A DNA stretch of 34,660 nucleotides from positions 1 to 34,660 of the IMG/VR virus record IMGVR_UViG_3300046689_000283. One strand, 5' to 3'. The notes beneath the pieces are model-generated. The model was not told the DNA's origin. It worked only from the letters and a program-made list of their open reading frames with translations, and did not search any database. The position numbers and the translations under genes are program-made. Below, piece after piece: positions 1 to 17,500 of this stretch. This DNA comes from a virus. Within the stretch, counting starts at the first letter, position 1. Each line of letters begins with the position of its first letter.

Positions 1-514
1 GCTACTGACATGACATGAGGGAGACATGGAAGTCATGGGAGGTCTTCAACACCTACGGTGTTGCCCTCACATAGGGTTCGGCGACCTACCCCTAAAGGGG
101 GTAGACATGGGGATGGGGTTAGAGACCCCGCTTCCGGTCGGTGGCTGAACTCAGTTCCTTAGAACTGAGTGACACGTGACCTCCAGTTCCTTGGAACTGG
201 ATGCACCTGCGCATAGACCTATGGACCTTGGTCCATAGGTCGCCGTGACTGTCAGCCCCATCACCGAATGGCCATTGACCTATAGCCTTGGCCCTTAGGC
301 CAATGGCTATAGGTGGGGGATAGTGAGAGCAACAACTTCGTTGTTGCTCACACCGTGCGCCCATACATACACAGACCTCGGTCTGTGTATGTACTCCGCG
401 CCGAGGCCAGAAACTCCGCTGACGCTCAATCCCCACCCCCACCACCTTTGGTGACAGCGAAGTGTGTGTGTGGAATGCTGCCCCTCTAGAACGTGAGGCC
501 CAGTGATGCGTAAC
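1..514. other. Gene-free left region filled with hairpins
   Basis: I see no credible coding gene here. The open frames that cross it run straight through perfect inverted repeats and have no ribosome binding site. Positions 1-46 repeat short GACATG/CATGA words. Positions 47-393 hold the hairpin array described separately. Positions 394-514 hold only a short CACC/GGTG hairpin near 443-453 and a TG-rich run near 463-471. The region lies immediately downstream of the leftward operon that ends at 515. If the molecule is circular or concatemeric it would also face the end of the rightward late operon, that is, a convergent intergenic zone. No U-tract typical of a simple intrinsic terminator follows any of the stems. 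Confidence 0.75.
47..393. repeat. Tandem array of at least eight hairpins
   Basis: Stems read directly from the sequence: 47-53/57-63 (7 bp); 86-92/98-104 (7 bp); 115-119/125-129 (5 bp); 149-157/162-170 (9 bp, loop CTTA); 182-190/193-201 (9 bp, CCTTGG centre); 216-227/230-241 (12 bp, CCTTGG centre); 278-293/298-314 (16 bp with one bulged T at 304, loop CTTA); 327-336/340-349 (10 bp, loop TTC); 364-377/380-393 (14 bp, CCTCGG centre). The cores at 152-167 and 184-199 differ by one base, in the loop. The stems at 216-241 and 278-314 share ACCTAT/ATAGGT ends but differ inside by paired, compensatory changes. This suggests selection on base pairing. Possible roles are a bidirectional terminator cluster, a structured non-coding RNA, or a replication or packaging site. 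Confidence 0.8.
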
Positions 515-901
515 TCAGGGGTTACCGACCACCTCGACCCTCAGGTAGAACCGTGTCTCGCCAGCGACCACGTCGTAGAGCGCCTCGATGTCCACCCCGT
601 GTGAGCGCAACCACACGACGATTGGTCCCACATCCCAGCCAGCGTTCAGTTCGTACTCCTCCTCGCTCTCTCCCAGTGCCCAGCACTCCCTCCAACTCCG
701 TCCGGTCTCCAGACTCCCAGCGAGGAAGCGATAGAGCAGCACAGCCTGAGGACGCCGCTTGGCGTCGTACTCCTCCTGCGCCTTGCTCCCACGACTCCTG
801 ACCGGCGCACTCTGCGTAGCCGGACGTTCTGGCGGCTGGATGCTGAACGTGCCACCCGGTGCGACGGCGAACACCAGCGGGCTGTCGTCATCCACCCTCA
901 C
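515..901 (-). CDS. Small winged-helix-like hypothetical protein
   Basis: This 128-aa protein is the last gene of the leftward operon. The start is GTG at 901, chosen because a strong GAGGAGGTGA ribosome binding site abuts it. That site lies inside the last codons of the upstream gene, and the two genes overlap by 14 nt, so translation is probably coupled. The N-terminal 50 residues are polar and probably disordered. Residues about 54-123 read like a compact helix-turn-helix or winged helix: a hydrophobic helix (LLYRFL), a second helix (SWRECWAL), then WDVGPIVVWLRSHGVDIEAL and a beta hairpin ending in RFYLRVEV. This pattern resembles small phage HTH proteins that end in an LRxxGxxI...Y-L wing. 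The DNA-binding role is an inference from the pattern. A regulator of the replication operon is plausible. Confidence 0.45.
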   Translation of the reverse strand: MRVDDDSPLVFAVAPGGTFSIQPPERPATQSAPVRSRGSKAQEEYDAKRRPQAVLLYRFLAGSLETGRSWRECWALGESEEEYELNAGWDVGPIVVWLRSHGVDIEALYDVVAGETRFYLRVEVVGNP

Positions 902-1481
902 TCACCTCCTCGATACAGCGAGCGCAGAACCGCGCTCCCTGACTGCCCGGACCAAGCACGAACTCCTCACAGCGTCGAGCAGCCTCGATTGGCCTGACCG
1001 GTCCTCGACAGCGGTACATCACCAAGATGGTCTTGCACGGGCACAGCACGTGGACTTCTACGTCGAACACGCGCTTGACCATCGTCGTCCCACTGAGGTG
1101 ACCAGCAGAGAGATGACGCTGGAGTTGCTCGTGCGTGAACACCGGTGTGTGCAGCGTGGCCAGTGCCCACAGGGAGTCTTCGAGGTCACGCTCTAACTGG
1201 CTCTTCGACATGTGACCCGCTTCGTCCCACGAGATGCCCGTTACCTGTCTGCCCTGAACTTGATTGAGGGGCACACCCATCAGCGTGGCTGCCCGCCTCA
1301 ATGGTCCGCCTGTCGGGACCACTGGACTGTTCTTGACGAGGTCGCGTACCTGCGCCATCGCACCCTCGCTCAGGGTGATGCTGGTGGGCGGTGGGGTGCC
1401 TCTGGCCTGTGCCGCTTGGATGGCTTCGATGGCCTGTTCGATGGGTGTCTTGGGCTTCGGGATGGGGGGCACCAGTCTCAC
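888..1481 (-). CDS. Hypothetical protein with C-terminal cysteine cluster
   Basis: This 197-aa protein is not recognised. The start is GTG at 1481; an internal GTG three codons later is an alternative, and the ribosome binding site (CTGGA) is weak for both. The N-terminus is proline-rich with an alanine-rich helix (residues 12-27). The middle holds a PLNQVQGRQVTGISWDEAGHMS stretch, split here as PLNQVQGRQV then TGISWDEAGHMS. The C-terminal third has CPC, a lone C about 10 residues later, a further C, and CARC near the end. That spacing could form a zinc ribbon. It sits between the primase-helicase gene and the winged-helix gene, so a replication accessory role is possible but unproven. Its start codon region lies inside the TGAGAC repeat array, so its expression may be controlled through those repeats. 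Confidence 0.6.
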   Translation of the reverse strand: MRLVPPIPKPKTPIEQAIEAIQAAQARGTPPPTSITLSEGAMAQVRDLVKNSPVVPTGGPLRRAATLMGVPLNQVQGRQVTGISWDEAGHMSKSQLERDLEDSLWALATLHTPVFTHEQLQRHLSAGHLSGTTMVKRVFDVEVHVLCPCKTILVMYRCRGPVRPIEAARRCEEFVLGPGSQGARFCARCIEEVSEGG

Positions 1482-1590
1482 TCCAGTCTCACGTGCAGAG
1501 TCTCACGTAGTCTCACGTCAGTCTCACTCATTTCGTGCAGAGTCTCAGTCCAGTCTCACACCGGTCTCAGAGCCAGTCTCATCAGTCTCA
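1475..1590. repeat. Iteron-like TGAGAC (GTCTCA) repeat array
   Basis: Ten copies of GTCTCA (TGAGAC on the minus strand) begin at 1475, 1486, 1500, 1510, 1521, 1542, 1553, 1564, 1576 and 1585. The steps are 11, 14, 10, 11, 21, 11, 11, 12 and 9 bp, so most copies lie on the same face of the helix. A 14-bp word, CGTGCAGAGTCTCA, occurs at 1492-1505 and again at 1534-1547, exactly 42 bp apart. Three more copies in the opposite orientation occur at 1614, 1620 and 1647, beyond a CCCCCC-GTA-GGGGGG hairpin at 1594-1608. The array covers the end of the primase-helicase gene, the 63-bp gap and the start of the next gene. Such phased short repeats suit a cooperative DNA-binding protein: replication iterons or an operator cluster. 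Confidence 0.75.
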
Positions 1591-3506
1591 CCACCCCCCG
1601 TAGGGGGGTTGGGTGAGACTGAGACTGGCGGCTCCCCCAGAACCAATGAGACTCTGGGTGGGACAGCAGACCGGCCAAGGTCCGTCAGGACGATGACCCC
1701 GAACTCATCCCTGACGATGAGACCGGCCTCGTCCATCTGCTTCAGGTGCCGGAACATCGTCGCCCTGCTGGGGACGGGCAACTCGTTGGCCGCGAGGTAG
1801 CCCGTCACCTGCTCCCACGTCGTGCGCCCCGCAGCGATGGCCCCGAGGATGGTCGCGTGTTCCTCGCGGGCCACCACCGTCGCTGGCAGCCGCTTGGCGT
1901 CCACCCGCGCCCAGCGGTCGGGGGCGTCGGGGGTCTCGCGCTTCAGGGTCAGGTCGCTGCGCGTGACGCGCTTGCGCACCCTGAACAGGACCACGTCATC
2001 GTCATCGGTCTCCGACACCAAGAGCAGCACGTCCGCGCTCCGCGTCCACTGCCCCATGACATCGGTGATGGTCCGCTCCAGCGCCTTGCCCACCGTCTTG
2101 CCGTCACGTGGCGGCTTCACCAAGTGGACGACCAGCACGATGGCGCAGTCGTGCTTCTCCTTCATCGCCTTCAGGAAGGCGATGACCCGCTTGAAGTCCT
2201 TGCCGTGTTCCTCGCCCACCATCGCGCCAGCCGTGTCGAGGATGACCAACTGTGGGGCGTACAGGGTCAGCAACTTGTCGAACACCGACTGGTCAACGAG
2301 CGACTCCAAGTTGAGACCGCTGTAGTGGACCCGGTGGTACAGCGCCATGTGGGGGTCGCGCTTCAGGTCGAGTGAGGCCAACATCGCCTCCTCCCGCACG
2401 AACTCCTCGCGCTCCCCGTTCTCCTCGTCAAAGAGCAGGACATCCCCCGCCCTGCCCATCGGGTAGGTGTCGAACAGGGCACCGTGCCCACACGCATAGC
2501 GGATGCCCAACTCCAAGCGCATGTTGGATTTCCCCACACCCTCGGTGCTGGCAAGGACCACCAACTGCCTCGGGCGGATGAGGTCCACCACCATCCAGTC
2601 GTCGATGTCCTTGGGGGCGACTGCGCTGATGGCGTCGATGACCGTGGGGAAATCTTCGAGGCGCTCCTCTGCTTCCTCCTCGACCTGTTCCGGTGAGGGC
2701 AACAGCCTCAGGGGGTCGGCAGGGAACTTCGTCTCGACATCGCCGATGGCCCGCTCGACCTCCTCCTGCGTCTTGGGTGAGGGCAACTGAGCGTTCAGCG
2801 CCATCACCGCGTTGAGCAGTGCCTCGCCTGTGAGCCCGCCACCCCTGAGCGTCCGTGCCCGGTCGCGCAGGTAGTCGTGGCGGGAACCCTCGGTGATGCT
2901 GCTGGGGTCGGGCGGACCACCGACCGTGATGCTACTGACCGAGGCGAGCCGCTGCTTCGGGAAGCCCTCGGCCACCCAGCGGTCGGGCAGGGGCTGGATG
3001 CCGCCCTTGCCGTTGAGCAGCCCGTAGGTCACACCGCTGGCATGGAGTGAGCCCGGTCCCAGCGTGTAGCCCTTGGCCTTCTGGCTGCGGGTGACGAACC
3101 CGAACAGCCGCTTGCCGATGAGGTCCGCTGGCACCCGGTAGAAGTAGTGGTAGCCGTTGGCGGTGACGACCGTCAGGGTCGCGGGCAGCGGACCGTACTG
3201 GTGCTGCAGTTCATCCCACCGCTGCTTGCCCTCGCCGTCCACATCCACCGCGACCACATCGACTGGCGCGACCAGTCCGTAGTTCGGGGTGCCGGGGTTC
3301 TGGAGGAAGGTGCGCACCTTGGCGATGTCGTCGGTCGCGTCGAGGAACCCGTGGACAGACGCGGGGTGCTTGCCCTTCTGGTCGCAGCCTGCGCCCTTGG
3401 GGCAGCGGCACGCGCCGGTGTCGGTGACGCCCCACACGGGGAACGCCTTGAACCCTTGGGACAGGAACCACTCAGCAGCCTTTGCTGCTGGGATGGGGTC
3501 GGACAT
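1545..3506 (-). CDS. Bifunctional primase-polymerase / RepA-like helicase
   Basis: This 653-aa protein probably primes and unwinds DNA for phage replication. The N-terminal 180 residues match the PrimPol (AEP) fold used by bifunctional DNA primase/polymerases: a CxC-x5-C then GKHP zinc-type segment (C33, C35, C41, H47), the catalytic DVDG (88-91), a YHYFY segment (119-123) and GPGSLHASG (150-158). Residues about 215-265 resemble the helical PriCT linker. Residues about 290-520 form a RecA/RepA-like ATPase with Walker A STEGVGKS (about 318-325) and Walker B LVILDTAG (about 418-425). Residues about 555-625 look like a winged helix (TTWEQVTGYL ... RATMFRHLKQMDEAGLIV). The start is ATG at 3506 with GAGG 8-11 nt upstream. 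The last residues, rich in E, T and G, are encoded by the TGAGAC repeats, so the tail may be a by-product of a DNA site. Confidence 0.85.
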   Translation of the reverse strand: MSDPIPAAKAAEWFLSQGFKAFPVWGVTDTGACRCPKGAGCDQKGKHPASVHGFLDATDDIAKVRTFLQNPGTPNYGLVAPVDVVAVDVDGEGKQRWDELQHQYGPLPATLTVVTANGYHYFYRVPADLIGKRLFGFVTRSQKAKGYTLGPGSLHASGVTYGLLNGKGGIQPLPDRWVAEGFPKQRLASVSSITVGGPPDPSSITEGSRHDYLRDRARTLRGGGLTGEALLNAVMALNAQLPSPKTQEEVERAIGDVETKFPADPLRLLPSPEQVEEEAEERLEDFPTVIDAISAVAPKDIDDWMVVDLIRPRQLVVLASTEGVGKSNMRLELGIRYACGHGALFDTYPMGRAGDVLLFDEENGEREEFVREEAMLASLDLKRDPHMALYHRVHYSGLNLESLVDQSVFDKLLTLYAPQLVILDTAGAMVGEEHGKDFKRVIAFLKAMKEKHDCAIVLVVHLVKPPRDGKTVGKALERTITDVMGQWTRSADVLLLVSETDDDDVVLFRVRKRVTRSDLTLKRETPDAPDRWARVDAKRLPATVVAREEHATILGAIAAGRTTWEQVTGYLAANELPVPSRATMFRHLKQMDEAGLIVRDEFGVIVLTDLGRSAVPPRVSLVLGEPPVSVSPNPPTGGGETDETGSETGVRLD

Positions 3507-3562
3507 GACTGGCCTCGATGACGAGCGGGGTGGGCCGTGGACGGACGGACGACAAGGGGTTG

Positions 3563-3590
3563 ACTATACTCCGGTGCGGTATGATGTGCA
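3563..3590 (-). promoter_or_regulatory. Candidate leftward promoter of the primase operon
   Basis: On the minus strand a TGCACA box (3585-3590) is followed after 16 bp by TATAGT (3563-3568). Transcription would begin about 45-50 nt before the primase start codon at 3506. The -10 matches sigma70/SigA consensus at 5 of 6 positions and the -35 at 4 of 6. It overlaps a rightward TTGACT box, so the two directions may compete. This is assigned by eye only. Confidence 0.35.
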
Positions 3591-3628
3591 TGTCCTCCGA
3601 GCGCAGGCTGTGGTAGGGCGATAAGGCG

Positions 3629-3680
3629 CGAAGCCCCCTGATGGTGTTGTTCCCCCCGCAACACTTGACAGGGGGTTTCG
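3629..3680 (+). promoter_or_regulatory. Two-tier hairpin upstream of SSB-like gene
   Basis: The outer stem pairs CGAAGCCCCCTG (3629-3640) with CAGGGGGTTTCG (3669-3680): 12 pairs including one G-U. The inner stem pairs GTGTTG (3644-3649) with CAACAC (3659-3664) around the loop TTCCCCCCG. It lies 71 bp before the ATG of the SSB-like gene and downstream of the first rightward promoter-like unit. It could therefore be a leader structure (attenuator or mRNA stabiliser) or a double-stranded protein-binding site. No U-run follows it, so a plain intrinsic terminator is less likely. Confidence 0.5.
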
Positions 3681-3751
3681 TGTATCATTCATCTGCGCAC
3701 GAGCGAGGGCATGAGCCAACCGCCACCGCGCAGGAGCAGGAGTCGTTCCCC

Positions 3752-4291
3752 ATGACCTTCAGCATCACCGTCGGTTCGGGTGTCCCCGACGACCAGTTGC
3801 CACCCGGCAACTACCCCGCCTCGCTGACCTCCGTCGTGGAGCGCACCATCGAGGTGAAGGGCGAGTCCCGCGACGTGTTCGAGTGGACGTTCGCCGTCCC
3901 CACCGTGAACGACGATGGTAGCCCCGGCGACCCCATCAGCGTCTCGGGCCTGTCGTCCCAGATGACCGGGCCGAAGTCGAAGACTGCGGCCTTCCTCGTC
4001 GCCCTTCTCGGACCCAGCGCGGTCCAGCCCGGTGCGACGTTCACCATGAACGACCTCATCGGCAAGACCTGCCTCATCCAGACGGACCTCAATGACTCGG
4101 GCTACGCCAAGGTCATCGGGGCCACGCCCACCCCCGTCTCCGCCACTCCCACTCGCCCGACCAATCGGGCCGCTGCGGGCGAGGCTCCGACGGCGAGTCC
4201 CGCTAGCGCCCCGGAGGTTGTGAGCCCGAGGAAGGCTTCGGCGGCACCCGTCGCCGTTGCCGATGACCCCGACGCGGACCTCCCCTTCTGA
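3752..4291 (+). CDS. SSB-like single-stranded DNA-binding protein
   Basis: This 179-aa protein starts at ATG 3752, not at the upstream ATG 3641, because an AGGAG lies 10 nt before 3752 while 3641 falls inside a hairpin without a ribosome binding site. Residues 1-125 are beta-rich (FSITVGS, YPASLTSVVERTIEV, DVFEWTFAVPT, LIGKTCLIQTDL, YAKVIGATPT), the pattern expected of an OB-fold of the phage DUF669/gp2.5-like kind. Residues about 126-170 are a Pro/Ala/Thr linker. The protein ends DDPDADLPF, which copies the acidic amphipathic tip of bacterial SSB (DDDIPF) that recruits replication and repair partners. It is divergently transcribed from the primase-helicase, with which it would share the replication fork. 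OB-fold membership is inferred; the tail motif is seen directly. Confidence 0.65.
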   Translation: MTFSITVGSGVPDDQLPPGNYPASLTSVVERTIEVKGESRDVFEWTFAVPTVNDDGSPGDPISVSGLSSQMTGPKSKTAAFLVALLGPSAVQPGATFTMNDLIGKTCLIQTDLNDSGYAKVIGATPTPVSATPTRPTNRAAAGEAPTASPASAPEVVSPRKASAAPVAVADDPDADLPF

Positions 4292-4308
4292 GCGGAGCCG
4301 AATGAAGC

Positions 4309-4416
4309 GAGGGTAGTTGCGGACCGAGGGGGGCTCGCACTACTCTCAAAGCGTTCCCTAGGGATGGGGAAAGCAACGAACGCCCCGGCTTCCTGCGAAG
4401 GCAGTCGGGGCGTTCG
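4309..4416. promoter_or_regulatory. Structured gap upstream of terminase genes
   Basis: The 140-bp gap between the SSB-like gene and the small terminase candidate holds three structures. The first is an imperfect 12-pair stem, 4309-4321 with 4336-4347 and one bulge. The second is the palindrome TCCCTAGGGA (4355-4364). The third is a perfect 11-bp stem, CGAACGCCCCG (4377-4387) with CGGGGCGTTCG (4406-4416), enclosing a small inner CTTC/GAAG hairpin. The last could end the early transcript (an actinobacterial-style terminator without a U-run). Location just before the terminase also allows a pac or cos recognition site. The two roles cannot be separated by sequence alone. Confidence 0.5.
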
Positions 4417-4431
4417 TGTACCCTGCGGGGC

Positions 4432-4974
4432 GTGGTCGAGTTCATCGAGATAGGCGAGGACGACCTCCCCGTCGCGCCCGTCACACCGCCTGTTCGCCCG
4501 ACGCCGATGGCTGCGTCTTCTCCGCAGGTGCATCGCGTCGGGCGACCCCGGACAGCCGACGGCTGGGCAGCCCGAGCGTCCCGTCAGAACCGCAACGACC
4601 AGCGTGCCATCGCTCGCGGTGACCCCATCAAGGTCGCTGACCCCGCGACTGCTCCCGACATCGTCCCCGAGGATGTCATCGCCGACACTGATGACCTCGC
4701 TGCGACCGTCGTTCGTCGCACGATGAAGCAGATGGCCGCTGGGAAACTCCAACCCACACTCCGCGATGGCCTGACGGCCCAGCAACTGCTCGACCGACGC
4801 GCTGAGAAGGCCGCTGACCGCTCGTTCATGCTCAACTTGGCGGCTGCGCTGGCCGGTGGTGGGTCCCGAACGCCCATCAAGTACCTGCCGAACCCCCAAG
4901 ACGTGGACCCGGACATCATCGAGGGCTCCTACAGCGAGGAGAACCTCGCCCCTGACCACCTGCGACAGGGCTGA
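4432..4974 (+). CDS. Putative terminase small subunit
   Basis: This 180-aa protein ends in a TGATG overlap with the large terminase gene, the usual place for the DNA-recognising small subunit of the packaging motor. The N-terminal 45 residues are Pro/Ala/Arg-rich, likely disordered and perhaps DNA-contacting (VGRPRTADGWAARASRQNR). Residues about 85-150 are helical: an acidic stretch, then VVRRTMKQMAAGK, LTAQQLLDRRAEKAADRS and FMLNLAAALAGGG. This resembles the oligomerisation helices of actinophage small terminases. The C-terminus (PDIIEGSYSEENL) is acidic and could contact the large subunit. The start GTG 4432 lacks a clear ribosome binding site; ATG 4507 is an alternative but has none either. 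The call rests mostly on context. Confidence 0.5.
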   Translation: MVEFIEIGEDDLPVAPVTPPVRPTPMAASSPQVHRVGRPRTADGWAARASRQNRNDQRAIARGDPIKVADPATAPDIVPEDVIADTDDLAATVVRRTMKQMAAGKLQPTLRDGLTAQQLLDRRAEKAADRSFMLNLAAALAGGGSRTPIKYLPNPQDVDPDIIEGSYSEENLAPDHLRQG

Positions 4975-6653
4975 TGCCCCCACCGAGGACCCCAGAGAGC
5001 AAGCACGGGTCCCGCCAGCGGGCAGATGCCAGCAAAGAGGCGGCGTTTGACCCCACTGCCCTCGTGTCGGGGGCGTTCGCGCACGATATTGCCCGTGGTC
5101 GGTGGGACATCGAGTTCTTCGCCGCCCGTTTCTTGGGTGTGACCCTCCATCCGGGGCAGATTGAGTTCGCGCACGCCGTCCTGATGCGCGACCTGACCGG
5201 ATGGCGACCCCGTTACTTCGACATCGCCCTCGCGGCGGGTAATCGTGCGGGGAAAACCCTCATCGAGACGATTTGCCACTTCCATTCGACGTTCTACAAG
5301 TTGGGATTGCCCCCACCGAGGCTGTCTTCGCGCTCATCACTGGCGAAATGGACCGCCCAAGCCTACGAGTGGTACCACTTGGCCATCGCGCAGGAGACCT
5401 CGGAGTTGGCGTACATCGAGTTGCGCCGTCTGCTCCAAGGCAACCACGAAGCGCAGAAGAACGGCTGTCCGCTGACCCAAGAGTTGGGGCCACAGGTGGT
5501 CGAGATGGACAAGAAGTACCGTTCCGAGTACCTGTGGGCGCAGATACACCCCGTGTTCGGCGGTGGGACCATCCACTACCGGACGACCGGCGAGAAGGCC
5601 ATCGGCTCGCTGGGCAAGGACATGAACGGGATTTCCTACGACGAATGCGGGTTCGACCCCAACTTCGAGTTCGTCGTCAACGAAGTTCTCCACATGCGAC
5701 GGTTGAGTACCGGTGGACAACTCTGGCTGGTGGGCACCGCGACCGAAGGTCTCACCGCATTCGCCGATGCGTGGTACGAAGGCGACCCCACCGCACCTGA
5801 CCGCAAGCAGGACAAGATGTCCCTTCGGATGTCTACTCGCCAGAACGTGGGCTTTGGCATCGACGAAGCCGTCTTTGACAGACTGGTGTCACAGATGCCG
5901 GTCGAGTTGGTCCCACAGAACATCGACGGCGAGTTCCTCGAAGGGAAGAGTTCGTTCTTCGCCCAGAGCGCAGTGGACGCGGCGTTCGTCGAGGGCTACC
6001 CACTGGCCATCGCGGCGTTGCCCTCACATCGCTACGTGCAGGGCGTGGACCCCGCGCTCACCTTCGACTCCACGTGGTCCATCGTCTTGGATGTCACCAA
6101 CCACGACCACGTCTTCGGGGTCAACGCGCAGCACCAGACCGGGCGGACCACGGGACCGGTCATCGCCGCGCTCGTCACCAACCAGCACATGGCCTACACA
6201 GGGAAGGGCGTGTCATGCATGACGGGCGTAGACACCACTGGGTTCGGCGGGGCGCTGTTCCGCGACTCCTTGCCCATCCCCATCCGCAGCGTCGAGTTCG
6301 GTGGTACGCGGGGGAAGAAACTGAAGTTGCTCATCGACCTGAAGCGGGCGCTGGAGACCTCGAAGGTGAAGTTCCCGAGGGAGGGACCGTGGCTGACCCT
6401 GCGCCGCCAACTCCTTGGCTACCGTCTGGACGACAAGAAACTCCAGACTGACGCGGTCATGGCCCTCGCCGTCGCATGGTCGATGGTGAAGTTCGTCCCG
6501 GCCAACGGGGTGCGCTCTGCGCCGTTCGACTACTTCGGGGCTTCGCCCCGTGGTGTACAGTCCCGTGTCAGTAGCGGGCCACCCACCGCAGCGTTCGGGT
6601 CTCGGGTCGCCACCTACTCCTCCGTCACCGACATGGAACGTCGCCGAGGGTAG
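4974..6653 (+). CDS. Terminase large subunit
   Basis: This 559-aa ATP-driven packaging motor and headful/cos nuclease is of normal length for the family. The ATPase shows Walker A AAGNRAGKT (residues 87-95) and Walker B ISYDE (220-224, D223 and E224). A QxxWL-V-TATE segment (about 249-258) follows as the coupling region. The C-terminal RNase H-like nuclease shows GVDPALTFDST (357-367) with acidic D359 and D365, a second acidic site near GVDTTG (418-423), and DAVMALAVAW (493-502), the typical third acidic motif. The N-terminal 40 residues are basic and polar. ATG 4974 overlaps the previous stop by one base, giving translational coupling with the small subunit candidate. All expected catalytic positions appear present. 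Confidence 0.93.
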   Translation: MPPPRTPESKHGSRQRADASKEAAFDPTALVSGAFAHDIARGRWDIEFFAARFLGVTLHPGQIEFAHAVLMRDLTGWRPRYFDIALAAGNRAGKTLIETICHFHSTFYKLGLPPPRLSSRSSLAKWTAQAYEWYHLAIAQETSELAYIELRRLLQGNHEAQKNGCPLTQELGPQVVEMDKKYRSEYLWAQIHPVFGGGTIHYRTTGEKAIGSLGKDMNGISYDECGFDPNFEFVVNEVLHMRRLSTGGQLWLVGTATEGLTAFADAWYEGDPTAPDRKQDKMSLRMSTRQNVGFGIDEAVFDRLVSQMPVELVPQNIDGEFLEGKSSFFAQSAVDAAFVEGYPLAIAALPSHRYVQGVDPALTFDSTWSIVLDVTNHDHVFGVNAQHQTGRTTGPVIAALVTNQHMAYTGKGVSCMTGVDTTGFGGALFRDSLPIPIRSVEFGGTRGKKLKLLIDLKRALETSKVKFPREGPWLTLRRQLLGYRLDDKKLQTDAVMALAVAWSMVKFVPANGVRSAPFDYFGASPRGVQSRVSSGPPTAAFGSRVATYSSVTDMERRRG

Positions 6654-6656
6654 GTC

Positions 6657-8735
6657 TTGTACGTTCTCGACGTACATCAGGGCGCAGCAGTCGCCGAACA
6701 GCAGGGCAACGACGAAGAGGCCATCAATCTCCTCAACGTGTTGCATGGCCGACGGCTCGCCACCGAGCCCGAGCAGCGCGTGTTCGCCACACTGTGCGAC
6801 CGCTGGGACAACCTCTACTACCCGCAGGTCTTCACCGCTGGTGGGGCCGACCACTGGGGCACCGACTTCAGTGCGCAGCCGGGGTCGGGCATGGCCCACG
6901 TGTCGGTCAACGGTTACGCCCCGTACGTGGACATCCCCGCCGCGCTGACCTCGTTCCAGCCCATCGAGAACGTTGTGCCCACCGCGCAGACCGATGCGGG
7001 CCGGACGACGGCGCAACTGGTCGAGCGCCTGTACTGGGCGTGGAAGGACCAGAACTTCTACGAGATGCTCTGCCACCGGGCCTGTGTGACCAAGGGTCTG
7101 TATGGCCGGACCGCCTCGAAAATCACGTGGGACAACGACGAGAAGATGCCCAAGTTCGAGGTGGTGGACCAGCCTCGGAACCTGTATCTGGGCTGGTCAT
7201 CGACCCAGTACAACCGCTTGGACTGGGCGTGCTACTCGTACTTGGTCACACCCGACCAAGCACTGGAGGACTGGGGCGTCACCATCGAGCAGGGCATGAC
7301 CGCCGACGGTGAGTCCTACCCCTACGTCGCCTACCCCCAGCGACTCGGGATGGTGGACAGCATCACCGGTCTCGGCCCGTACGACCCGTATCCCCTCGCC
7401 AACTGGACGCCGTCCACCGACCTGCGCATCGAGGTCAGCGACTACTGGTACCGCAAGCCCCGTGCCGATGCCCGCTGGGAGTACGGCAAGCCGGTCAAGT
7501 TCGAGACGTGGAACGCCATCTTCGTCGGCAACTGCATGGTCAAGAACGAGGTCCACAAGGAGTACCGGGGCAAACTGCCGTACGTCCCACTGTTCAACTC
7601 GTTCATCCCCGGCCTGCCCAACGGTAAGAGCAACTTCTGGGACATCGAGCAGTTGATGCGCGAGAAGGACGAGAGGCTGTCCGAGAACGCGCAGATGATT
7701 CACCGGGCCATCGCGGGGCAGATGTGGCAGTTGACCGGAGCCGAAGCGCCGAGTGAGGTGGACCCCAACCTCCATCCCACGCCCAATCAAATCATCGCGC
7801 CCGGTGGGGGGAACAGGGTCGAGGCACTCCAGCCGTGGATGCCCGAGTTCCAAATCGAGCAGTACATGTCCCGCGTTGACCGCGAACTGGTCGATGTCAG
7901 TGGGCTCAACGACCTGATGCGCGGCATGGCCCCGACGCAGGTGATGAGTTCGGGCAAGGCCGTGGCTGCACTGGTCAGCAACTACGAGACCCGGATGACC
8001 ATGCCGCGTGACATGTACTACCAGTGGCGGCAGGACAACTGGGAAATCGCCCGGACCATGTTCATCGAGAAGATGCCCGAACTGAAGCCGATGCTCGAAG
8101 GCACGACGAAGTTGTACATCGAGTCCCCGTCGTTGACCCCACGCGACGACGCCGAGATGTCCACCATCGCGCTGAACATGAAGGAAGGCAAGTTGTGGTC
8201 GGCCAAGCGGGCGATGGACCGCACCGGCGTGGACGACCCCGAGGCCGAGCAGGATGTCATCCGCGAGGAGCAGACCGACGCGACCCTCAACCCGGCCAGC
8301 GTTCAGGTCATGGTCAGCCTCATGGCGATGATGCAGCAGTTGCAGCAGCAGCAGCCGCAGGGTCTGCAGCAGCAGGGGCAGGAAGCCGAGCAGGGCATGG
8401 CCGCGAACATGGCCGCGCTCCGGGGACAGGGCGGGGCGCAGGGCACGCCATCGGGCAACGGCCCCGGCGAGTCGCCCAACACACCACCTGAGCAGCAGCC
8501 CGGTAACACCCCCGAGGGAGCGGCTATGGGTGCCGCTGGTCCCGAGGGCATGGGTGGGCCGGGTGCTGCCCCACCGCCACCGGGCGCACCGGGCGAGACC
8601 CCCGCGCCGAATGCGCCCGGTGCCCCCGGTGGCCCGCCGGTGCCGAGCCAGATGCTCAGTCAGGTCCGCATCCAAGGCGGGCAGAGCAAGCCGCGCATCG
8701 TGAGCCAGAGCCAGATACAGAAGTCGGGACGGTAA
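6657..8735 (+). CDS. Portal protein
   Basis: This 692-aa protein is the dodecameric gateway for DNA at the capsid vertex. It starts at TTG 6657, three bases after the terminase stop, behind GAGGG. The family assignment rests on the mixed alpha/beta body and position: LCDRWDNLYYPQ near the N-terminus, VVPTAQTDAGRTTAQLVERLYWAWK, a beta-rich wing (FEVVDQPRNLYLGWS), the long stem-like helix region around YETRMTMPRDMYYQWRQDN, and a terminase directly upstream. Residues about 557-575 are glutamine-rich (QQLQQQQPQGLQQQGQ). Residues about 595-692 are Gly/Pro/Ala-rich and certainly disordered. Most portals lack such a 130-residue low-complexity tail. It could line the capsid interior or contact the two giant proteins encoded next. 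Confidence 0.8.
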   Translation: MYVLDVHQGAAVAEQQGNDEEAINLLNVLHGRRLATEPEQRVFATLCDRWDNLYYPQVFTAGGADHWGTDFSAQPGSGMAHVSVNGYAPYVDIPAALTSFQPIENVVPTAQTDAGRTTAQLVERLYWAWKDQNFYEMLCHRACVTKGLYGRTASKITWDNDEKMPKFEVVDQPRNLYLGWSSTQYNRLDWACYSYLVTPDQALEDWGVTIEQGMTADGESYPYVAYPQRLGMVDSITGLGPYDPYPLANWTPSTDLRIEVSDYWYRKPRADARWEYGKPVKFETWNAIFVGNCMVKNEVHKEYRGKLPYVPLFNSFIPGLPNGKSNFWDIEQLMREKDERLSENAQMIHRAIAGQMWQLTGAEAPSEVDPNLHPTPNQIIAPGGGNRVEALQPWMPEFQIEQYMSRVDRELVDVSGLNDLMRGMAPTQVMSSGKAVAALVSNYETRMTMPRDMYYQWRQDNWEIARTMFIEKMPELKPMLEGTTKLYIESPSLTPRDDAEMSTIALNMKEGKLWSAKRAMDRTGVDDPEAEQDVIREEQTDATLNPASVQVMVSLMAMMQQLQQQQPQGLQQQGQEAEQGMAANMAALRGQGGAQGTPSGNGPGESPNTPPEQQPGNTPEGAAMGAAGPEGMGGPGAAPPPPGAPGETPAPNAPGAPGGPPVPSQMLSQVRIQGGQSKPRIVSQSQIQKSGR

Positions 8736-8738
8736 TCC

Positions 8739-11585
8739 GTGGCCCGCAGTGGGACCTTCGGGCGCATCCCGAAGGCAGCACCAGACCTGACCAACACCAT
8801 CGTTGCGCTGGTCCGTGAGGCCAACGCGCAGGAAGACCAGAACTTCGTCGATGCGTGGAAGAACGGCGGGAAGGTCGATGGCAAGGGCGTGACCGACTCG
8901 CGCCTGCTCGACCACATGAAGATGCGGCGGGACCAACTTGACCCCACCGACCCCAACTGGGACCAGTGGAACAACAACTACATCCAGTACGACTTCAGCA
9001 TCAACGAGTCGAAGATGGTGCTGAAGAACGACCAGAAGAAGGTCAGTGACGCCCAGATGGCCCAGTTCTACAAGAACTGGGCAGCCCGCCCCGACGTGCA
9101 GCAGGACAGTGAGTTCTACCGCTCGCTGCTCGACCGTGCGGCCAAGTGGAACGCATCGGCCACGGCCAAGAAGGCAGCGGGCGGGGCGCGGAGCGCGGCT
9201 GCCGCGCACGCCAACTGGGTCAACGGCTTCTACAAGGGCCACGTGCAGGGAGCCGAGGAGGCGACACAGGACTTGGTGGTCATCGCCAAGTTGTACGGGG
9301 CCATGCCGCAGACGGGCAACAACCTCGACGACATCGACGAGAACAGTGCGGGCTACGCCAAGTTCCTCGATGTCCTCGACAACGGCAAGGCCGAGGGCAA
9401 CCCTGCGGTGCAGGGTGCCATCGACGCGATGAACGCCAACATCAAGAAGACCAATCCGAACTGGACGTACAGCCGCCAGAACCTGACCGACTTGCTCTCA
9501 CGCGGGGACTCGGGGCTGGCCACGCTGGTCGGCAAGTCCACCTCCGACACCGAGCGCAAGGGCTGGACCAAGCGGGCGGGCGAACAGAGTTACGCCGGTG
9601 CCCGCATCCGGCAGGCCGACGCGAACGAGCGCGTCCAGATTGCGACGAACAACTACATGAAGGACCTGAGTGACTGCAACGGCGACCCGTTCTGTGCGAG
9701 GAACGCGACCCAGACCTACCACGACAAGTTGGTCGCCGAGGCGAAGAACATCACGGTCACCAAGGGCGGGCCGCTGACGCTCTCGACGGTGGACGTGAAG
9801 ACGGCGAGTGCGTTCATCGCCACCCTCGGTCAGGTCAATCAGGCGCTGAGCGACCCCACCAAGCCCATCGAGGCACCCGGTGCGCGGACCGCACAGGCCG
9901 CACCCGGAGCGCAGGGCAAGGTGCCCGGTGACGACTACACCATCTTCGACGCGGCGGCTGGTCTGTCTCCGGGCAACCCGAGCGGCTTCCTGCAGAACCT
10001 GCTCAACGGCATGAACTCCGACGCGGGCAACCTGACGCAGGGCGGCTGGATGTCCACCGACCCCATCGTGGACGCGAACGGTGTGATTGCGCTCGACGGC
10101 AACGGCGACCCCCTCTTCAACTACCACATCCACAGCCCGAAGGAGCCGACCCCACCGGGGGCTGTCGCCATCCCCGGCACGTCGATGTTCACCGATGGCT
10201 CGCAGTCGGTGCCGGGTCCTGACGGCACGCCCGGTCCGCACACCGTTGTCCCCACCATGTACGTCACACCCATCCCGGCCCAACTTGCGCTGGTCGATGC
10301 CAACGGCAACAAGATTGACCCGCAGCAGACCGGGCAGGTTCACCTCACCAATGGACCGGGTGTCCCGACCAACGCGCCGTGGGTGGAAATCCACGGCGTG
10401 AAGGGTCCCGACGGCGTTGGCCGCACCCTGTACCGAACCGGCGATGGCAGCGCGGGCGACCCGTTCATGTTCCACGAGCAGCCGCCGGTGTCGGCCACCA
10501 CCCCCAAGAACACCGCCGGTCAGGTCATCGTTCCCACCACGGTGGGCTCCGACAGCACCGGCAAGCCGCTGGCGACCGCCGACATCGCGGGCATCGTGAC
10601 GGGCGTTGCCGGTGCCCGCCGCCCGCTGGCGTCGGGCAACTTCCCGATGGGGACGTACGGCACATCCGGTGCGACCCAGACCTCACTGGCCGTGGGTGCG
10701 CTGTTCCACAAGCAGGACCCCAACGCCCAGCGGCTGGCCGACCAGTACGTCACGACCTTCCAGCAGTCCATCGCCGCCATGCCGTGGAACGACCCGAACC
10801 GTGCCGCTGCCCTGCGTGACCTCAACCAACTCCACACACGGGTGGACCTGTACAAGTCGGGCACGTCCGACAACGTCATGGCCACCACCTACGCGCAGGA
10901 CAACCAGTACAACCCGCAGACGCAGGTGCTGCAGAGCCAGTTGGCGCGGTCGGGCATCACCCCGTCATCCGTCGGACAGGCTGAGTTCGACCGCCGCCTG
11001 TCGATGATGCAGGGCATCGACGAGGCCAACCTGCGGCTGCAGAACGGCAACATGCAGAGGCTGGGTCTGAACCTGCTCTACGGTGTCGCCACTCCGGGTG
11101 ACCCCAACGCGAAGGCGAACCTCGACCAGCAGAAGGCCAACGTCCTCAACCCGTCCATCTCCCTCTCCAGCATCAAGGTGCCGGGGATGCCGCAGATGTT
11201 CCAGCCACAGACCGGCGTTCCCGGTTCGGTCAACCCATTCGCGCCCGACTGGATGGGCGCACTTGGGCAGACGCCGGGTATCGGGATGCCGCAGACCCCG
11301 ACGCCGTACGTCGCACCAATCCCGAAGGCACCCGGTCAACTCGGCCCCGGTGTCCCCGGTCCGTCCACGGCTGCTGTGCCCAAGCCGCCAGCGCCACCGG
11401 CACCGCCCAAGCCGCCGCCGTCTGTGGTCCCGCCGCAGGGTCCGCCCGTCGTCGTTGCACCGAACCCGCTGCCGGGTGGCCCCGGCATCAACCAGTACGG
11501 CGGAGCGGGGACCGAGCCGTACGGCCCACCGACCACCGCACCCATCGCACCGTTCGACTACCAGCCGCACGGCAGCGGGGCGTAA
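8739..11585 (+). CDS. Large virion-associated protein, function unknown
   Basis: This 948-aa protein starts at GTG 8739, just after the portal stop. I do not recognise a family. Residues 1-320 are rich in Asn, Gln, Asp and Lys with long helices (LVALVREANAQEDQNFVDAW, KKVSDAQMAQFYKNWAAR). They contain two nearby cysteines (CNGDPFC, about 313-319). The middle part (about 400-650) is beta-rich with Gly/Pro turns. Residues about 700-830 are helical again with many Gln. The C-terminus from about 865 is a proline-rich linker (PKPPAPPAPPKPPP) followed by a GGAGTEPYGPP tail. No signal peptide or membrane span is evident. Its place between the portal and a multi-enzyme giant suggests an internal virion or ejection protein, perhaps the partner that packages or delivers the giant. 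That role is inferred. Confidence 0.55.
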   Translation: MARSGTFGRIPKAAPDLTNTIVALVREANAQEDQNFVDAWKNGGKVDGKGVTDSRLLDHMKMRRDQLDPTDPNWDQWNNNYIQYDFSINESKMVLKNDQKKVSDAQMAQFYKNWAARPDVQQDSEFYRSLLDRAAKWNASATAKKAAGGARSAAAAHANWVNGFYKGHVQGAEEATQDLVVIAKLYGAMPQTGNNLDDIDENSAGYAKFLDVLDNGKAEGNPAVQGAIDAMNANIKKTNPNWTYSRQNLTDLLSRGDSGLATLVGKSTSDTERKGWTKRAGEQSYAGARIRQADANERVQIATNNYMKDLSDCNGDPFCARNATQTYHDKLVAEAKNITVTKGGPLTLSTVDVKTASAFIATLGQVNQALSDPTKPIEAPGARTAQAAPGAQGKVPGDDYTIFDAAAGLSPGNPSGFLQNLLNGMNSDAGNLTQGGWMSTDPIVDANGVIALDGNGDPLFNYHIHSPKEPTPPGAVAIPGTSMFTDGSQSVPGPDGTPGPHTVVPTMYVTPIPAQLALVDANGNKIDPQQTGQVHLTNGPGVPTNAPWVEIHGVKGPDGVGRTLYRTGDGSAGDPFMFHEQPPVSATTPKNTAGQVIVPTTVGSDSTGKPLATADIAGIVTGVAGARRPLASGNFPMGTYGTSGATQTSLAVGALFHKQDPNAQRLADQYVTTFQQSIAAMPWNDPNRAAALRDLNQLHTRVDLYKSGTSDNVMATTYAQDNQYNPQTQVLQSQLARSGITPSSVGQAEFDRRLSMMQGIDEANLRLQNGNMQRLGLNLLYGVATPGDPNAKANLDQQKANVLNPSISLSSIKVPGMPQMFQPQTGVPGSVNPFAPDWMGALGQTPGIGMPQTPTPYVAPIPKAPGQLGPGVPGPSTAAVPKPPAPPAPPKPPPSVVPPQGPPVVVAPNPLPGGPGINQYGGAGTEPYGPPTTAPIAPFDYQPHGSGA

Positions 11586-14500
11586 GTGACCCTCGGCGGC
11601 ACGTGGGGCGCGAACGCGGCAGCCTCCACCTCGGGTGGGGGGTTCGGCTTCGGGTCGGGCTCGAACGCACCCGCGAGTTCGTACGGCTTGGGGCCGGTCT
11701 CGACCCGCAACGGCGGCAGTGCGGTCTACTACGGTCCGGCTGACGGCAACACGCAGGTCCGCCAGTTCGCCAGTGTGGGCAAGGAGGACATCAACCTCCT
11801 CGACCCGCTCTCCACCTCGCGCATGAACTCGCCCATCCCCATCGACCCGGCACAGGACAACAGTCCGCTGGGGTCGGTGGCCCGGTACTACTCGCCGAGT
11901 ACACCCGGCGGGCTGTTCGCCGGGCTGCTGGGTGCGGTAGGGTCAACGGTCGGCGGCATCTTGGGGCAGGGCGGGGCAGGCCAGACCATCGGGGCCGACA
12001 TCGGCAAGACCATCGAGGCACCGCTGTCCATCGCTGGCGGGGTGGGCATCCAGAGCGTGCCGTTCCTCGCACCAATCATCGACGCGGCCAACAGTCAAAT
12101 CGAGCAGTTCACCCCGTACATCCTGCGCGACACGCTGAAGATACCGACCAACATCGGTGGCGCATTCCAGTCCATCCTCAACATCCCCGGTCTGGTCGGT
12201 GAGGCCATCCAGCGCACGTACGCCGGGATGTCTGGTGCGCGTGGGGCGCTGCCCGACGACATCCAGCAGAAGATTGACTCGGGCGAGTGGACCCGTGACC
12301 GGGCCTTGGATGAACTGGTCCTGTCACAGCGCGGCTTCACGAACGACCCGATTGCCAACACGGTGTGGTCAATCCTGACCGACCCCGTGAACTGGGCATC
12401 GCTGGGCGTGGGCGCGGTGGCCGGTGCCGTGGAGGGAACGGCTGACATCGCCCGCATCTTCTCGTCGGCTGCCGCACGCGAGGGCAGCACGGTCGCCGCG
12501 CTGGCGGGGGACGGCAGCCGAGTGGGCGAACTGGCCAAGTTGGCGCAGGACGGGCAAGACCTCAGTGCGGTCAACCTGTCGCGTGGGGACCTGAGCGTGA
12601 TGAAGCAGGCCGTCAACCACGACCTGCTCGACCGTGTGGCCAACGGCGAGGACATTCCCAACCACCTGAAGTTGAAGATTTCGGAGCGCATCGGGACGAG
12701 CGCCCTCGGTCCCATCAGTGACGCGGCCACCCAGAACATCATCTACAAGGTGGCCGACAAGATTGCGAAGGCCAGCGACCCGGTCAACTTCTTCAGCGGC
12801 TCGCGGGCTGCGCAGCGGTCGATGGAAGCCCTGCACATGGCGGCGTCCACGGCGGTCGTCGCGGCGCTGAAGCCCAAGGTCGTGCGCGACCTCACGTCCA
12901 TCGCCGACGACCTCGCCACCGATGGCGGCGACCGCATCATGGAGGCGGTCGGGACGTGGGGCGCGAACGGGATGCAGGAGACGGCAGCGGGCGAGACGGC
13001 CAACGACGCGGCTCGCATCAACGCCATCCCCAAGCACCCGACCCTGAACTCCGCCGAGGCCACGCGAGCGCAGTTGGCCGGTGGGGCGTACGACACCAAC
13101 ATCGGGAAGTACATCGAGACGCAGGTCGAGAAGACCAAGGACATCCGGGTTGCGTCCCTGCCCGCCGACCAGATGCGCGAGCAGACCGTCAACAAGTTGG
13201 CTGCCATCCTGCAGGTGGACCCAGCCAAGGTGGCGGCTCGTGTGGGCAAGGTCAGCGCCGACATGGCGATGGCCGTCCACGGGCTGTACTACTACACCAA
13301 GGGCAAGGTGCTGCACACCAGCGTGATGGCTGCCATCAAGGACGCTGCCGTCAAGGGCGTGCTACCGAAGGACATCGACCCGCACGACATCACGATGATT
13401 ACGCCCCGCACCCTGACCAACCTCCGGGTCAAGGAGTTGGACGCCGCCATCAAGGCTGGCGACCTCGCCAAGGTGAGGGCAATCACCGAGTCCTACGACG
13501 ACTTCAACTGGATGAACCGTCAGACCGTCAAGGACGCCACCCTCATCCATGACGTGAAGGACTACCTCGATACCAACCGCTCGTCGCTGCCGCAGGAAAT
13601 CAACCTGAAGGACGCAGCCGGGAACATCCGCACCGACATCCCGCAGGAACTGCAGGACTGGGCGAGGGACGGCTCGAACTTCGAGTACGGCCTCGCCAAT
13701 GGCATCCCTGAGAACGCGCCGCTCGAAGCCCAGTGGCGCATCACCCACAACGCCGACGGTGGCATCAAGAACGCGCAGCCGTGGCTGCAGTTCTGGGCGG
13801 ACGGCATCCCGGCTGCACAGCGGGTGAGCCGCTGGCAGTCCATGAACATCTCGATGTTCCGGGGCATCCGGGGTGAGCGCATCCTGTGGAACCAACGCCG
13901 CCGGTTCATCACCGACATGGCGTCCAAGGAGTCGGGCAACATCGACCTGCCGCCCGCCCTCGCCGACCGCATCTTCAAGGCGTTGATGTTCGAGGCGCAG
14001 GAAGGCCGGTTGCTCCCACGGGGCATGTCGCCCGACCAGATGATGGATGCCGTTCACGGTGTACTCGAAGATGTGCGCTCCAACACCGGGACGTACGGCA
14101 ACGTTGCCGCCAAACTCACGGAACGCCAAGTGGTCACCGGCTTCCTCCGGGCGATGGAGGGAGACGTGTCGATGGTGGGGGCAACACAGAAACTGACCGG
14201 CATGGTCAAGGCCCGAGCGCCCGGCGCGGCAGGCAACTACTGGGGCCAGTTGTCCGAGAAGTTGTACCCGCTCATGCGCTTCACGCTGAACCCGGTGTTC
14301 ATGTCGATGGAGTTGGTCGAGCCGTACATCCTCGACTACATGCGCGGCGTTCCCCTCCCGCTGCGCAGGGAGAGTGAGAAGTACCAGCAGGGGCTGGCGA
14401 CCTACAACGCCATCCGCCAGTACGTGTTCGCCTCACGCGAGCCTGACGGCCTCTTGGCTGAGAACGCCGAGATGAACGCCATGCGTATCTACCAAGCGGC

Positions 14501-17500
14501 CACGGCTCGCAAGACCTTCGGTCCGGGCACCATCTGGGGCCGCATCAAGGGCACCAAGCCAGCCATCGCCGAGCGCAAGCAGGCAGCCGCTGGCATGGAG
14601 GCACGCCGCCTCATCGGTGACAACCTGTACGCGGCGTTCCACGAAATCTGGGGTGACCAGTTCGAGCGGAACTGGGGCGACCTCGCCTACGAGTACGGCA
14701 CCGTGGACCGGGCCGAGATTGCCGAACGCTGGCTGTCGAGCAACCTGTCGCTGATGGACAAGGACGGGCGGCGGGTTGGCCTCCCGATGGACCTGATGAA
14801 CCCCGTCAACGTGGGCCAGCGGCTCAGGTTCTCGACTGACGGTGCCCGCCCCGGCGACTACACCTTCGGTGATGTCGAAGCCATGCTCGACTCCGTGGAG
14901 CGCCAGAAGGCTGCTCCCGGCACCCTGTTCGAGGACGCCGGTCTGGCTCCGGGCGAGGCATTGCTGACACACCTGCGCGGCACATCCGAGTCCGACTGGC
15001 TGGACCGGGTCGAGCGGGCTGGGTTGGCCCCACGGTTCGAGCGGGTATCACACTCGGCTGCCTCCGATGTGTGGCGGATGGCCAACGGCCCGAAGGTCGA
15101 GCCCTTCTGGAAGGACTACCGCTCGACCTATCTGCGTGGGCTCAAAGGCCCGGATGCCGTCACCACTCGCCGCCTGCGGGACCAGCAGGTTGCGTCTGCC
15201 CGAGCGTTCGTGCAGGCGGCAGCCAAGGGCAAGGGCGTCAGCGAGGAGGAGTTCCTTGCCATGCACTTCGAGCGGACGCCCGAGTGGCTGGCGAACTACG
15301 TCGCTGACCCCAACGGCGTCCAGCAGGTTCTGACGGACATCCGGGCGGATTGGGGTCACGCCGTCCTGCGTCGGTCGGACGGAGGCGTGGAGGCGTACGA
15401 CGTGACGCCGCTGAAGTGGGCGGCACAGGCGAAGGCGTTGGAGGAGCCGGGCTACGCCTCGTCCGTTGCGGGCCTGCGGTCGGGCAACGAGAACCGGGAC
15501 TTCCTGTACCTCTCACTGACCCGCCAGCGGATGGATGCGTTGGCTCGTGCGGCCAAGGTCGGTTACGGGGACACGCTCGTGGGGACGAAGTACGCCCCCA
15601 TCCACAGCGACCCCATCCGGGCGATTACCCAGCGATACGCAGGCACCGGGGCGATGGTCCGGGTGCGGCGTGATGCGGTGGAGGCAACCCGAGAGCATCC
15701 GCAGACCAACCTGAAGCGGATGAAGTCGCACGACTTCACGCTCGACGATGACGTGTATGCCGAGAACGCTGCGCAGAACGGGCTGGAGGTCTACACCGAG
15801 AAGGGCTGGGTCCCGTGGGCCGACTACCTGAAGGACGGGAGCGGGAACGTCAGGGTTGACCTGCGCAACGAGCCCAGCGAGGAGTACCTGAGCCACCTGT
15901 TCGAGTCGGACCTCGGGGCACCCGGTGCGACCCAGCCGTACGGCATCGACTTCCGGGCTCTGTCCAGTCTCGAAGAGAAGGCTGCGACCAACGACTACGA
16001 GGGTTCGGGTCACGGTCCCCTCAACCGCTTCCTGCGTGGCATCAGCAAGCCGAACGAGTACGACTGGAACGCTGGTCGCAAATGGACCGACGACAAACTC
16101 ATCGAGATGCGGGACCACCTCGATGCGCTCGTCCAGCGGGGTTCGTTCCGTGAGCGCAAGACGCTCTTCCGGGGGACCACCCTGTCGCCCGAACATGTTG
16201 GCGAACTCGACAAGCGGGTGGGTGAAATCGTCCACGACCAAGGCTTCGTTTCCACCACCGACATGGTGGATACGGCGCAGGAGTTCGTTGACTTCGGTGA
16301 GGCGGCGTACAGCGGCGGTCAGCAGTTCCTCATCGAGTACGACCTCCCGCCGGGGTTCCACATGAACCTCATCGAGGGCGGGGAGGGCGAGTACCTGTTG
16401 GGCCGGGGCATCGACTTCGAGGTGGTCAATCGGGGTTCGGCTCACATCGGAGGCCAGCAGACCATTACGCTGCGTCTCCGGCCCGTGGGTGTCGAGACGA
16501 TGCCCCGCATGGAGCGCGACATGATGGGCGCACCGTTGCTCCATCGCCGCAACGAGGAACTGGCGCGGCACCTTGCCGCCACCGACCCCGACCAACTCCT
16601 CGCTCGTGCAGCCGCTGCGCCAGAGGACCTGCGCGAAGGTCTCACCGAGGTGGCCAAGGAGTACATCGCCAAGGCGGAGGCAGCCCGACCCCACAACGAC
16701 ACGGTCGTCGGCGGGCGGCGCTTCGGTCTGTTGACCCCACAGGACACGCTCGACGAAATCACCCAGCACGTTCCCGAGGAGGACGTGCCCGCCTACCACG
16801 GGCAGTGGGCCGATGCTCGTGGTCGGGTCGAGGAACTGGCGCAGACCGAGGGCTACGACACGTGGGCCGGGGTCCAGCCGGGGCGCATCTACAACAGCAA
16901 CGCTGGGCGGATGCTGGTCGGGCTGGGTGCGGCCATCGCCGAGAAGGGCGGCGAGGGGGCGCTGGCCATGTTCGTGTCCACCTTGGAGCGACTGTGGCAT
17001 CGCGGTCCGGTGGACGCGGAGGGTGCGGCACGGGACATCCAACTTGCGAACTTCCAGACCCAGAACCTGCTGCGTGGGCTGAAGCACCCGATGGGCAACC
17101 CGGACGTGAGTGCCCGTATCGACGACGCCATCGACACGGTGCTGGGCAATGACTCGCGGCGAGCGATTGGTCGCACCGACCTGACCCAGCCCATCGTGGC
17201 CGACGAGCGTGCGTACGAAGCAGCGGGCTACCTGACGCCGGATACGCTCGCTGAACTTCGGACGCAGGGCCACCTGCCGCCCGAGGGCGTTGCCCTCACA
17301 CCAGAGGCCATCCCCGAACACGCGATGACCGAGGTGACATCTCTCGGTGGCACGACCGGGGAGAAGGGCGCAGTACAGGTCCGCGACAAGGCGACCGGCA
17401 AGTCGTACGTCGAGAAGACCGGCGACAGCCCCGGCCACATCCGCAACGAGTACGCCGCCGACCGGGCGTACGAAGCAGCGGGCGTCCCGGTGCCGCACGC

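Follow-up and report, generated by a model that had tools for sequence, protein, structure and literature searches.

Gene content and setting

The window, as we call the whole stretch of DNA analyzed here, is a linear fragment of 34,660 bases from a virus record. It opens with an array of small hairpins, followed by replication genes on the minus strand and structural genes on the plus strand. Relatives were recovered by capsid and PrimPol searches of viral contigs, and two of them, G001 (46,788 bases) and G003 (36,049 bases), contain the DNA of window positions 1-890 at 79% and 86% identity, respectively. The genes referred to below are as follows.

515-901 (-): unknown 128-aa protein, the last gene before the hairpins; conserved in G001 and G003, with a DNA match in G004
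888-1481 (-): unknown 197-aa protein of the same operon
1545-3506 (-): PrimPol-AAA replication protein, upstream of the hairpins in the same operon
3641-4291 (+): 216-aa protein, encoded divergently from PrimPol; its match to a phage replication initiation family (NGO0469, E 5.6e-5) is below threshold
6657-8735 (+): portal
11586-20279 (+): giant protein of 2897 aa, no family match
20988-22094 (+): major capsid protein
23836-28299 (+): collagen-repeat tail-fibre-like protein of 1487 aa, with fibronectin/Ig-like matches

An annotated phage collection held no close phage; the portal had no match there and the capsid protein weak partial matches only. Searches of bacterial genomes for capsid or AAA relatives that might point to a host gave none. 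Read by eye, the giant protein contains ADP-ribosyltransferase-like (FRGTTLSPEH...GFVSTT), HipA/PI-kinase-like (NWDVMGLEGDNILI...VDNG), and metalloprotease-like (HELVH) motifs; it may be a polyvalent protein that is injected along with the DNA.

The hairpin array in the window

A first-pass annotation of the window had described a dense array of hairpins at 47-393, and every stem that it named is present, with about 10 hairpins where fewer than 1 would be expected by chance. The hairpins of the window are listed below together with their state in the relatives.

1-12: 3'-arm remnant of a 17-bp perfect hairpin, which alignment shows as cagtagcgcccacttcc-CTCA-ggaagtgggcgctactg in G001 and G003 (L029:4621-4658; L030:3605-3642)
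47-63: 7 bp, loop TAC (TTC in G003)
86-104: 7 bp, loop of 5 nt
115-129: 5 bp, loop of 5 nt; the stem is kept while the loop varies among genomes
149-170: 9 bp, loop CTTA; a compensated C-G/G-C swap in G001
182-201: 9 bp, loop TT
216-241: 12 bp, loop TT; in G001 the inner 7 bp are kept and the outer part is broken
278-314: imperfect long hairpin, 18-nt arms 83% complementary; rewritten yet paired in G001
288-303: perfect 6-bp inner stem within the imperfect stem at 278-314
327-349: 10 bp (14 bp in G001 and G003), loop of 3 nt, TTC/GAA
364-393: 14 bp, loop TC (GA in G001); edge of the hairpins on the PrimPol side
440-453: 5 bp

The likenesses reported among these stems also hold up: positions 152-167 and 184-199 differ by one base (CAGTTCCTTAGAACTG and CAGTTCCTTGGAACTG, family D2), and the outer stem ACCTAT/ATAGGT is common to 216-241 and 278-314. 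We likewise see no gene here, as the ORF at 119-445 (-) is interrupted by indels relative to both relatives and G001 has no corresponding ORF of 50 aa or more. Within positions 1-500, stems of at least 6 bp number 3 against 0.2 expected with 2-nt loops, 2 against 0.1 with 3-nt loops, and 2 against 0.2 with 4-nt loops, and of the 13 perfect stems of 8 bp or more with loops of up to 8 that occur in all 34.7 kb, the segment 149-393 holds 5. Terminator-like sites, scored as a GC stem followed by a T run, number zero in window positions 1-6000, in agreement with the earlier view that the array is not a single terminator, and a tRNA scan found none.

The tract in related genomes

The array is confirmed as real and is larger than first noted. 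The 350-nt extent originally given to it fails, since on the G001 and G003 contigs, which continue past the point where the window ends, the hairpins run for ~7 kb beyond the window's left end and through genes; the window itself covers just the last ~400 bases of the tract. In G001, the tract reaches from L029:4214 to ~11819 (~7.6 kb) and contains 136 perfect hairpins that do not overlap (stem of 5 bp or more, loop of 2-4 nt) at a median spacing of 49 nt, which make up 30% of its DNA. Stems of at least 6 bp with 3-nt loops number 62 in the tract, compared to 2.6 expected, and the flanking DNA is at chance. The left edge is abrupt; rightward, the density declines gradually and falls to zero within the gene at 11554-12957.

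The tract begins with 1.3 kb of non-coding DNA and continues through a small Cys-rich gene, an AAA (MoxR/CobS-like) gene, a gene for a 444-aa protein, a CobT/VWA gene, and small genes; the 444-aa gene, lying between the AAA and CobT/VWA genes, occupies the CobT position. Hairpins are found at 13.3 per kb in coding and 14.2 per kb in non-coding DNA. The AAA gene has 25, against a mean of 2.2 and a maximum of 7 in 200 synonymous-codon shuffles, which preserved the protein sequence and the codon usage. In G001, no excess is seen in the operon's PrimPol gene (2 hairpins, 3 expected). The codon phase of the hairpins was roughly in the ratio of the synonymous shuffles and was uninformative, and GC skew over the tract gave no clear origin signal.

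Neither window positions 1-5000 nor the tract had a nucleotide match among phages and plasmids. Counting stems of 6 bp or longer, the tract peaks at 21 per kb, compared to 8 or fewer in any 1-kb window of ~45 related contigs and to 3-6 per kb in stretches of phage N4, Streptomyces phage Bogota, and MW202444. Five relatives (G005, G006, G012, G013, and G016) also have the AAA and VWA genes and RusA, and their hairpins number 1.6-3.0 per kb versus 9-10. The hairpin tract is thus specific to one uncultivated tailed-phage clade. The gene set at L029:6072-9750, an AAA (CobS-like) and VWA (CobT-like) pair with an intervening gene, recurs in the replication operon of the family, with homologues in G003 and in the same five relatives.

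The endonuclease VII family cuts cruciforms and branched DNA. G001 has an endonuclease VII gene (L029:16497-16838), and G003 has its counterpart; among 13 related records, several of them fragmentary, no other has it. The gene adjoins that of the RusA resolvase, which is found in 8 of the 13 records. The co-occurrence with the tract is a lead that amounts to one evolutionary event and proves nothing.

Stem and loop geometry

With 3-nt loops, stems of 3-4 bp are near chance, those of 5-8 bp are in excess, and those of 9 bp or more are almost absent. Counted by exact length, observed and expected numbers are 93 and 106 at 3 bp, 24 and 1.8 at 6 bp, 22 and 0.6 at 7 bp, 13 and 0.1 at 8 bp, and 1 and 0.1 at 9 bp. 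Over all loops the stems of the tract measure 5-9 bp apart from five of 11-17 bp, short of arms in the tens of base pairs. Loop lengths of 2, 3, and 4 nt are overrepresented, 5 nt only slightly so, and 6-7 nt not at all. With both strands counted, 32 of 82 triloops are of the cGNAg or cTNCg type, ~9-fold more than the 3.4 expected, and the hyperstable RNA tetraloops UNCG and GNRA show no clear enrichment in the tract.

The arms are perfectly Watson-Crick; interior single mismatches, G.U included, are near chance in stems of 6-7 bp. The coding strand is weakly favored, with GNA loops at 31 versus 15 and G.T over A.C at 7 versus 3 in 8-bp stems, an asymmetry that we considered and found weak as a signature of RNA. 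At the outermost pair, 5'-C exceeds 5'-G by 67 to 31 (p=3.5e-4) in a strand-symmetric manner, most strongly in 7-bp stems (24 of 33), and C is favored at the loop-closing pair too. This preference could reflect the site preference of an enzyme.

Differences between two complete tracts

Two complete tracts were available, those of the close relatives G001 and G003, which are ~97% identical in the coding part and have no outgroup alignable at the DNA level, and the changes described here are for that reason unpolarized. The two share 102 identical hairpins. Where both members of a base pair differ, 11 of 14 pairs are still Watson-Crick with G001 as the reference and 16 of 19 with G003, which bears out the earlier suggestion that pairing is maintained. 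In the well-aligned part, single differences occur at 2 of 1528 stem sites versus 53 of 4834 sites outside, a ~9-fold depletion (Fisher 9e-5); clustered differences (41 in stems, 74 outside) are not depleted in stems.

At several places, different hairpins replace one another at the same site. At 4755, ctgaagac-TAC-gtcttcag in one genome corresponds to ctgaggt-TTC-acctcag in the other, and at 7637, acgagtcc/ggactcgt corresponds to acgatgcc/ggcatcgt. At L029:7506-7529, GGCACCAC-TT-GTGGTGCC in G001 is matched by AGCAAC-GGA-GTTGCT in G003, such that one segment is complementary to its right neighbor in G001 and to its left neighbor in G003. Multinucleotide differences that complete an arm as the reverse complement of its neighbor are seen at 7514, 9481, and 9567; in the last case (9567-9573), the arm is completed by three synonymous changes together. 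Other clustered changes in the coding part, at 6587, 7485, 8302, and 9324, touch no hairpin.

Unambiguous two-base loop flips number one in the tract, at the 364-393 hairpin (TC in the window and G003, GA in G001), and one outside it (AA/TT, L029:17177 versus L030); changes such as TTA/TAA and CTTA/CTAA are also single substitutions.

Origin and upkeep of the hairpins

A literature search found no genome with more than 100 perfect mini-hairpins of one geometry filling a single bounded segment, genes included, and to our knowledge none has been described. The tract and its paired arm changes point to an unusual DNA-copying or DNA-folding process; they do not suggest a conventional terminator or RNA gene. 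Whether perfect hairpins originate and persist by copying or by selection, a question on which the evidence from elsewhere is scattered, could be studied here in a natural setting. Extrusion or folding of the hairpins in vivo, should it occur, would mark a phage segment that is single-stranded or supercoiled in an unusual way.

Our preferred reading, held with slightly less than even confidence, is that arm-to-arm template switching, within a bounded segment of the replication operon, wrote the hairpins of this tract at the DNA level and keeps them perfect. While the phage DNA replicates, the segment would time and again become single-stranded or extrude, and stable CGNAG-type loops would nucleate short fold-backs in it. 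A polymerase would then use one arm as the template for a few bases of its partner and switch back, writing new perfect arms, mending broken ones, and sometimes inverting loops. Hairpins could in this way arise, be replaced, and stay perfect with no function required at each site, and the changes that survive would be those that pass the filter of protein-coding constraint.

Template switching is reported to leave homogenized arms, inverted spacers, and multinucleotide clusters (PMC8604942; PMC8794818). We read the tract as a case of arm homogenization because it has perfect Watson-Crick arms with few partial mismatches and multinucleotide differences that complete arms; the loop flip at 364-393 may be an inverted spacer. 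Template switching accounts for the coordinated multi-base arm changes no less well than selection does, and we infer that it drives the tract. Several observations count against it. Template switching normally acts across the whole genome, and here there is a sharp left edge and a stop within the right-hand gene for which no cause was found; the slight coding-strand excess of GNA loops and G.T pairs is what one would expect of an RNA or of a process acting on one strand; and several clusters in the coding part touch no hairpin. Intrastrand switching is also expected to favor G and T on the 5' side (PMC8794818), an asymmetry not seen in the tract, where C is favored instead.

The main rival, in line with the first-pass suggestion of a DNA site under selection for pairing, is selection for DNA structure, in which extruded or single-stranded mini-hairpins are functional and template switching at most supplies variants. 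The tract might then be an origin or transfer region, an array for a hairpin-recognizing protein, a supercoil sink, or a set of N4-like extruded sites. The bounded position next to the PrimPol gene is in its favor, as are the uniform stem and loop geometry, the strand-symmetric 5'-C preference at the outermost and loop-closing pairs, the depletion of single substitutions in stems, and the restriction of the endonuclease VII gene to tract-bearing genomes among the 13 tested; selection might also set the 8-bp ceiling on stem size. However, more than 100 sites are of equal quality across genes and non-coding DNA, hairpins turn over in place, which is odd if sites are individually needed, no binding protein was identified, and five relatives with the same operon do without a hairpin excess. 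We judge selection to be unlikely, if by no means negligible, as the main cause.

A local cause for the restriction to one segment is needed under template switching and under selection alike. It may be that a dedicated local process of this clade writes short hairpins of fixed size with C(GNA)G loops into one segment, genes included, which would make the tract a heritable, self-repairing structural layer of the DNA, independent of the encoded proteins. We give this proposal a smaller chance again; the process would possibly be tied to PrimPol replication or to the extra endonuclease VII.

Structured phage RNAs and hyperstable mRNA hairpins form dense, stable stem-loops in phage transcripts. 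The operon mRNA with its 1.3-kb leader could accordingly have been selected for hairpins that confer stability, protection from RNases or RNA-targeting defenses, or binding of a protein. Window positions 40-400 do fold very stably as RNA on either strand (z-scores of -11.9 for plus and -11.0 for minus), pairs are compensated, and the weak coding-strand bias would fit. Nevertheless, the first-pass suggestion of a structured RNA is disfavored, and the reading fits less well than selected DNA structure; we regard it as improbable. An Rfam scan, one of the checks proposed with that annotation, gave nothing above the gathering score on window or tract (MIR2086 reached 32 bits against a cut-off of 50, on the 17-bp hairpin). 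The loops are 3-nt DNA-type loops in place of UNCG or GNRA tetraloops, interior G.U pairs stay at chance in 6-7-bp stems, and the hairpins, as dense in coding genes as outside them, are indifferent to gene boundaries. Operon genes up- and downstream have no hairpins, though no terminator-like site was seen in the window that could confine a transcript to the tract. Structured phage RNAs differ from the tract, with its DNA-like loops and pairing and its span of several coding genes.

That the hairpins are promoters for an N4-type virion RNA polymerase, at least one per gene, is very improbable. Extrusion of N4 promoters from supercoiled DNA is made possible by a 5'G and a 3'A in the loop and by the C:G closing pair (PMC4496689), a rule that the C(GNA)G loops and short stems of the tract fit, and a 2897-aa protein is encoded in the structural gene region. 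We rejected the idea on the sequence of this giant protein, which has no PHROG or PDB match and no similarity to the N4 polymerase (blastp best E 0.6; hhalign probability 0.4); moreover, more than 100 hairpins on both strands and inside genes are not a promoter layout. Ordinary features, i.e., a terminator cluster, a mobile palindromic repeat family, or chance, are the least credible of all, since, common as palindromes are at gene ends, terminator-like sites are missing from window positions 1-6000, the stems differ from site to site (only 152-167 and 184-199 are closely alike), and counts far above shuffles, seen in independent contigs, already refute them.

Comparison with known systems

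Mitochondrial genes of Nematomorpha have "binary" inverted repeats, either perfect or absent, in coding genes, for which arm conversion or template switching was proposed by the authors (PMC6649704). Like those coding palindromes, the tract has perfect inverted repeats in functional genes, hardly any surplus of imperfect ones, and gain or loss between relatives (PMC6649704), and its genes likewise hold more perfect repeats than preservation of their codons would lead one to expect. The nematomorph repeats are long (up to 284 bp) and spread across mitochondrial genes (PMC6649704), whereas those of the phage are uniform 5-8-bp stems with 2-4-nt loops of the C(GNA)G type, about one in every 50 nt, and restricted to ~7.6 kb of a dsDNA phage genome.

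With template-switch mutations, the tract has in common arm-completing multinucleotide clusters, compensated changes, and perhaps loop inversion (PMC8604942; PMC8794818); such mutations are scattered single events in genomes or RNA genes, in contrast to the ~136 hairpins of one bounded tract. The early promoter hairpins of N4 resemble it in having a short stem and a 3-nt loop with 5'G, 3'A, and a C:G closing pair, extrudable from supercoiled DNA (PMC4496689), but N4 has three hairpins and a virion RNA polymerase that reads them, and the tract has more than 100, on both strands, with no detectable polymerase of this kind.

Other observations on the contigs

Two of the four contigs of the group break at the tract. 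Alignment with G001 and G003 places the start of the window inside the 3' arm of the 17-bp hairpin, and the G004 contig (21,244 bases) ends ~60 bases short of where the 364-393 hairpin would lie. Sequencing or assembly may be impeded by such hairpins.

The loop flip outside the tract lies in a 16-bp hairpin at L029:17177-17210, near possibly convergent genes, with the loop AA in G001 and the inverted TT in G003; this is probably a bidirectional terminator.
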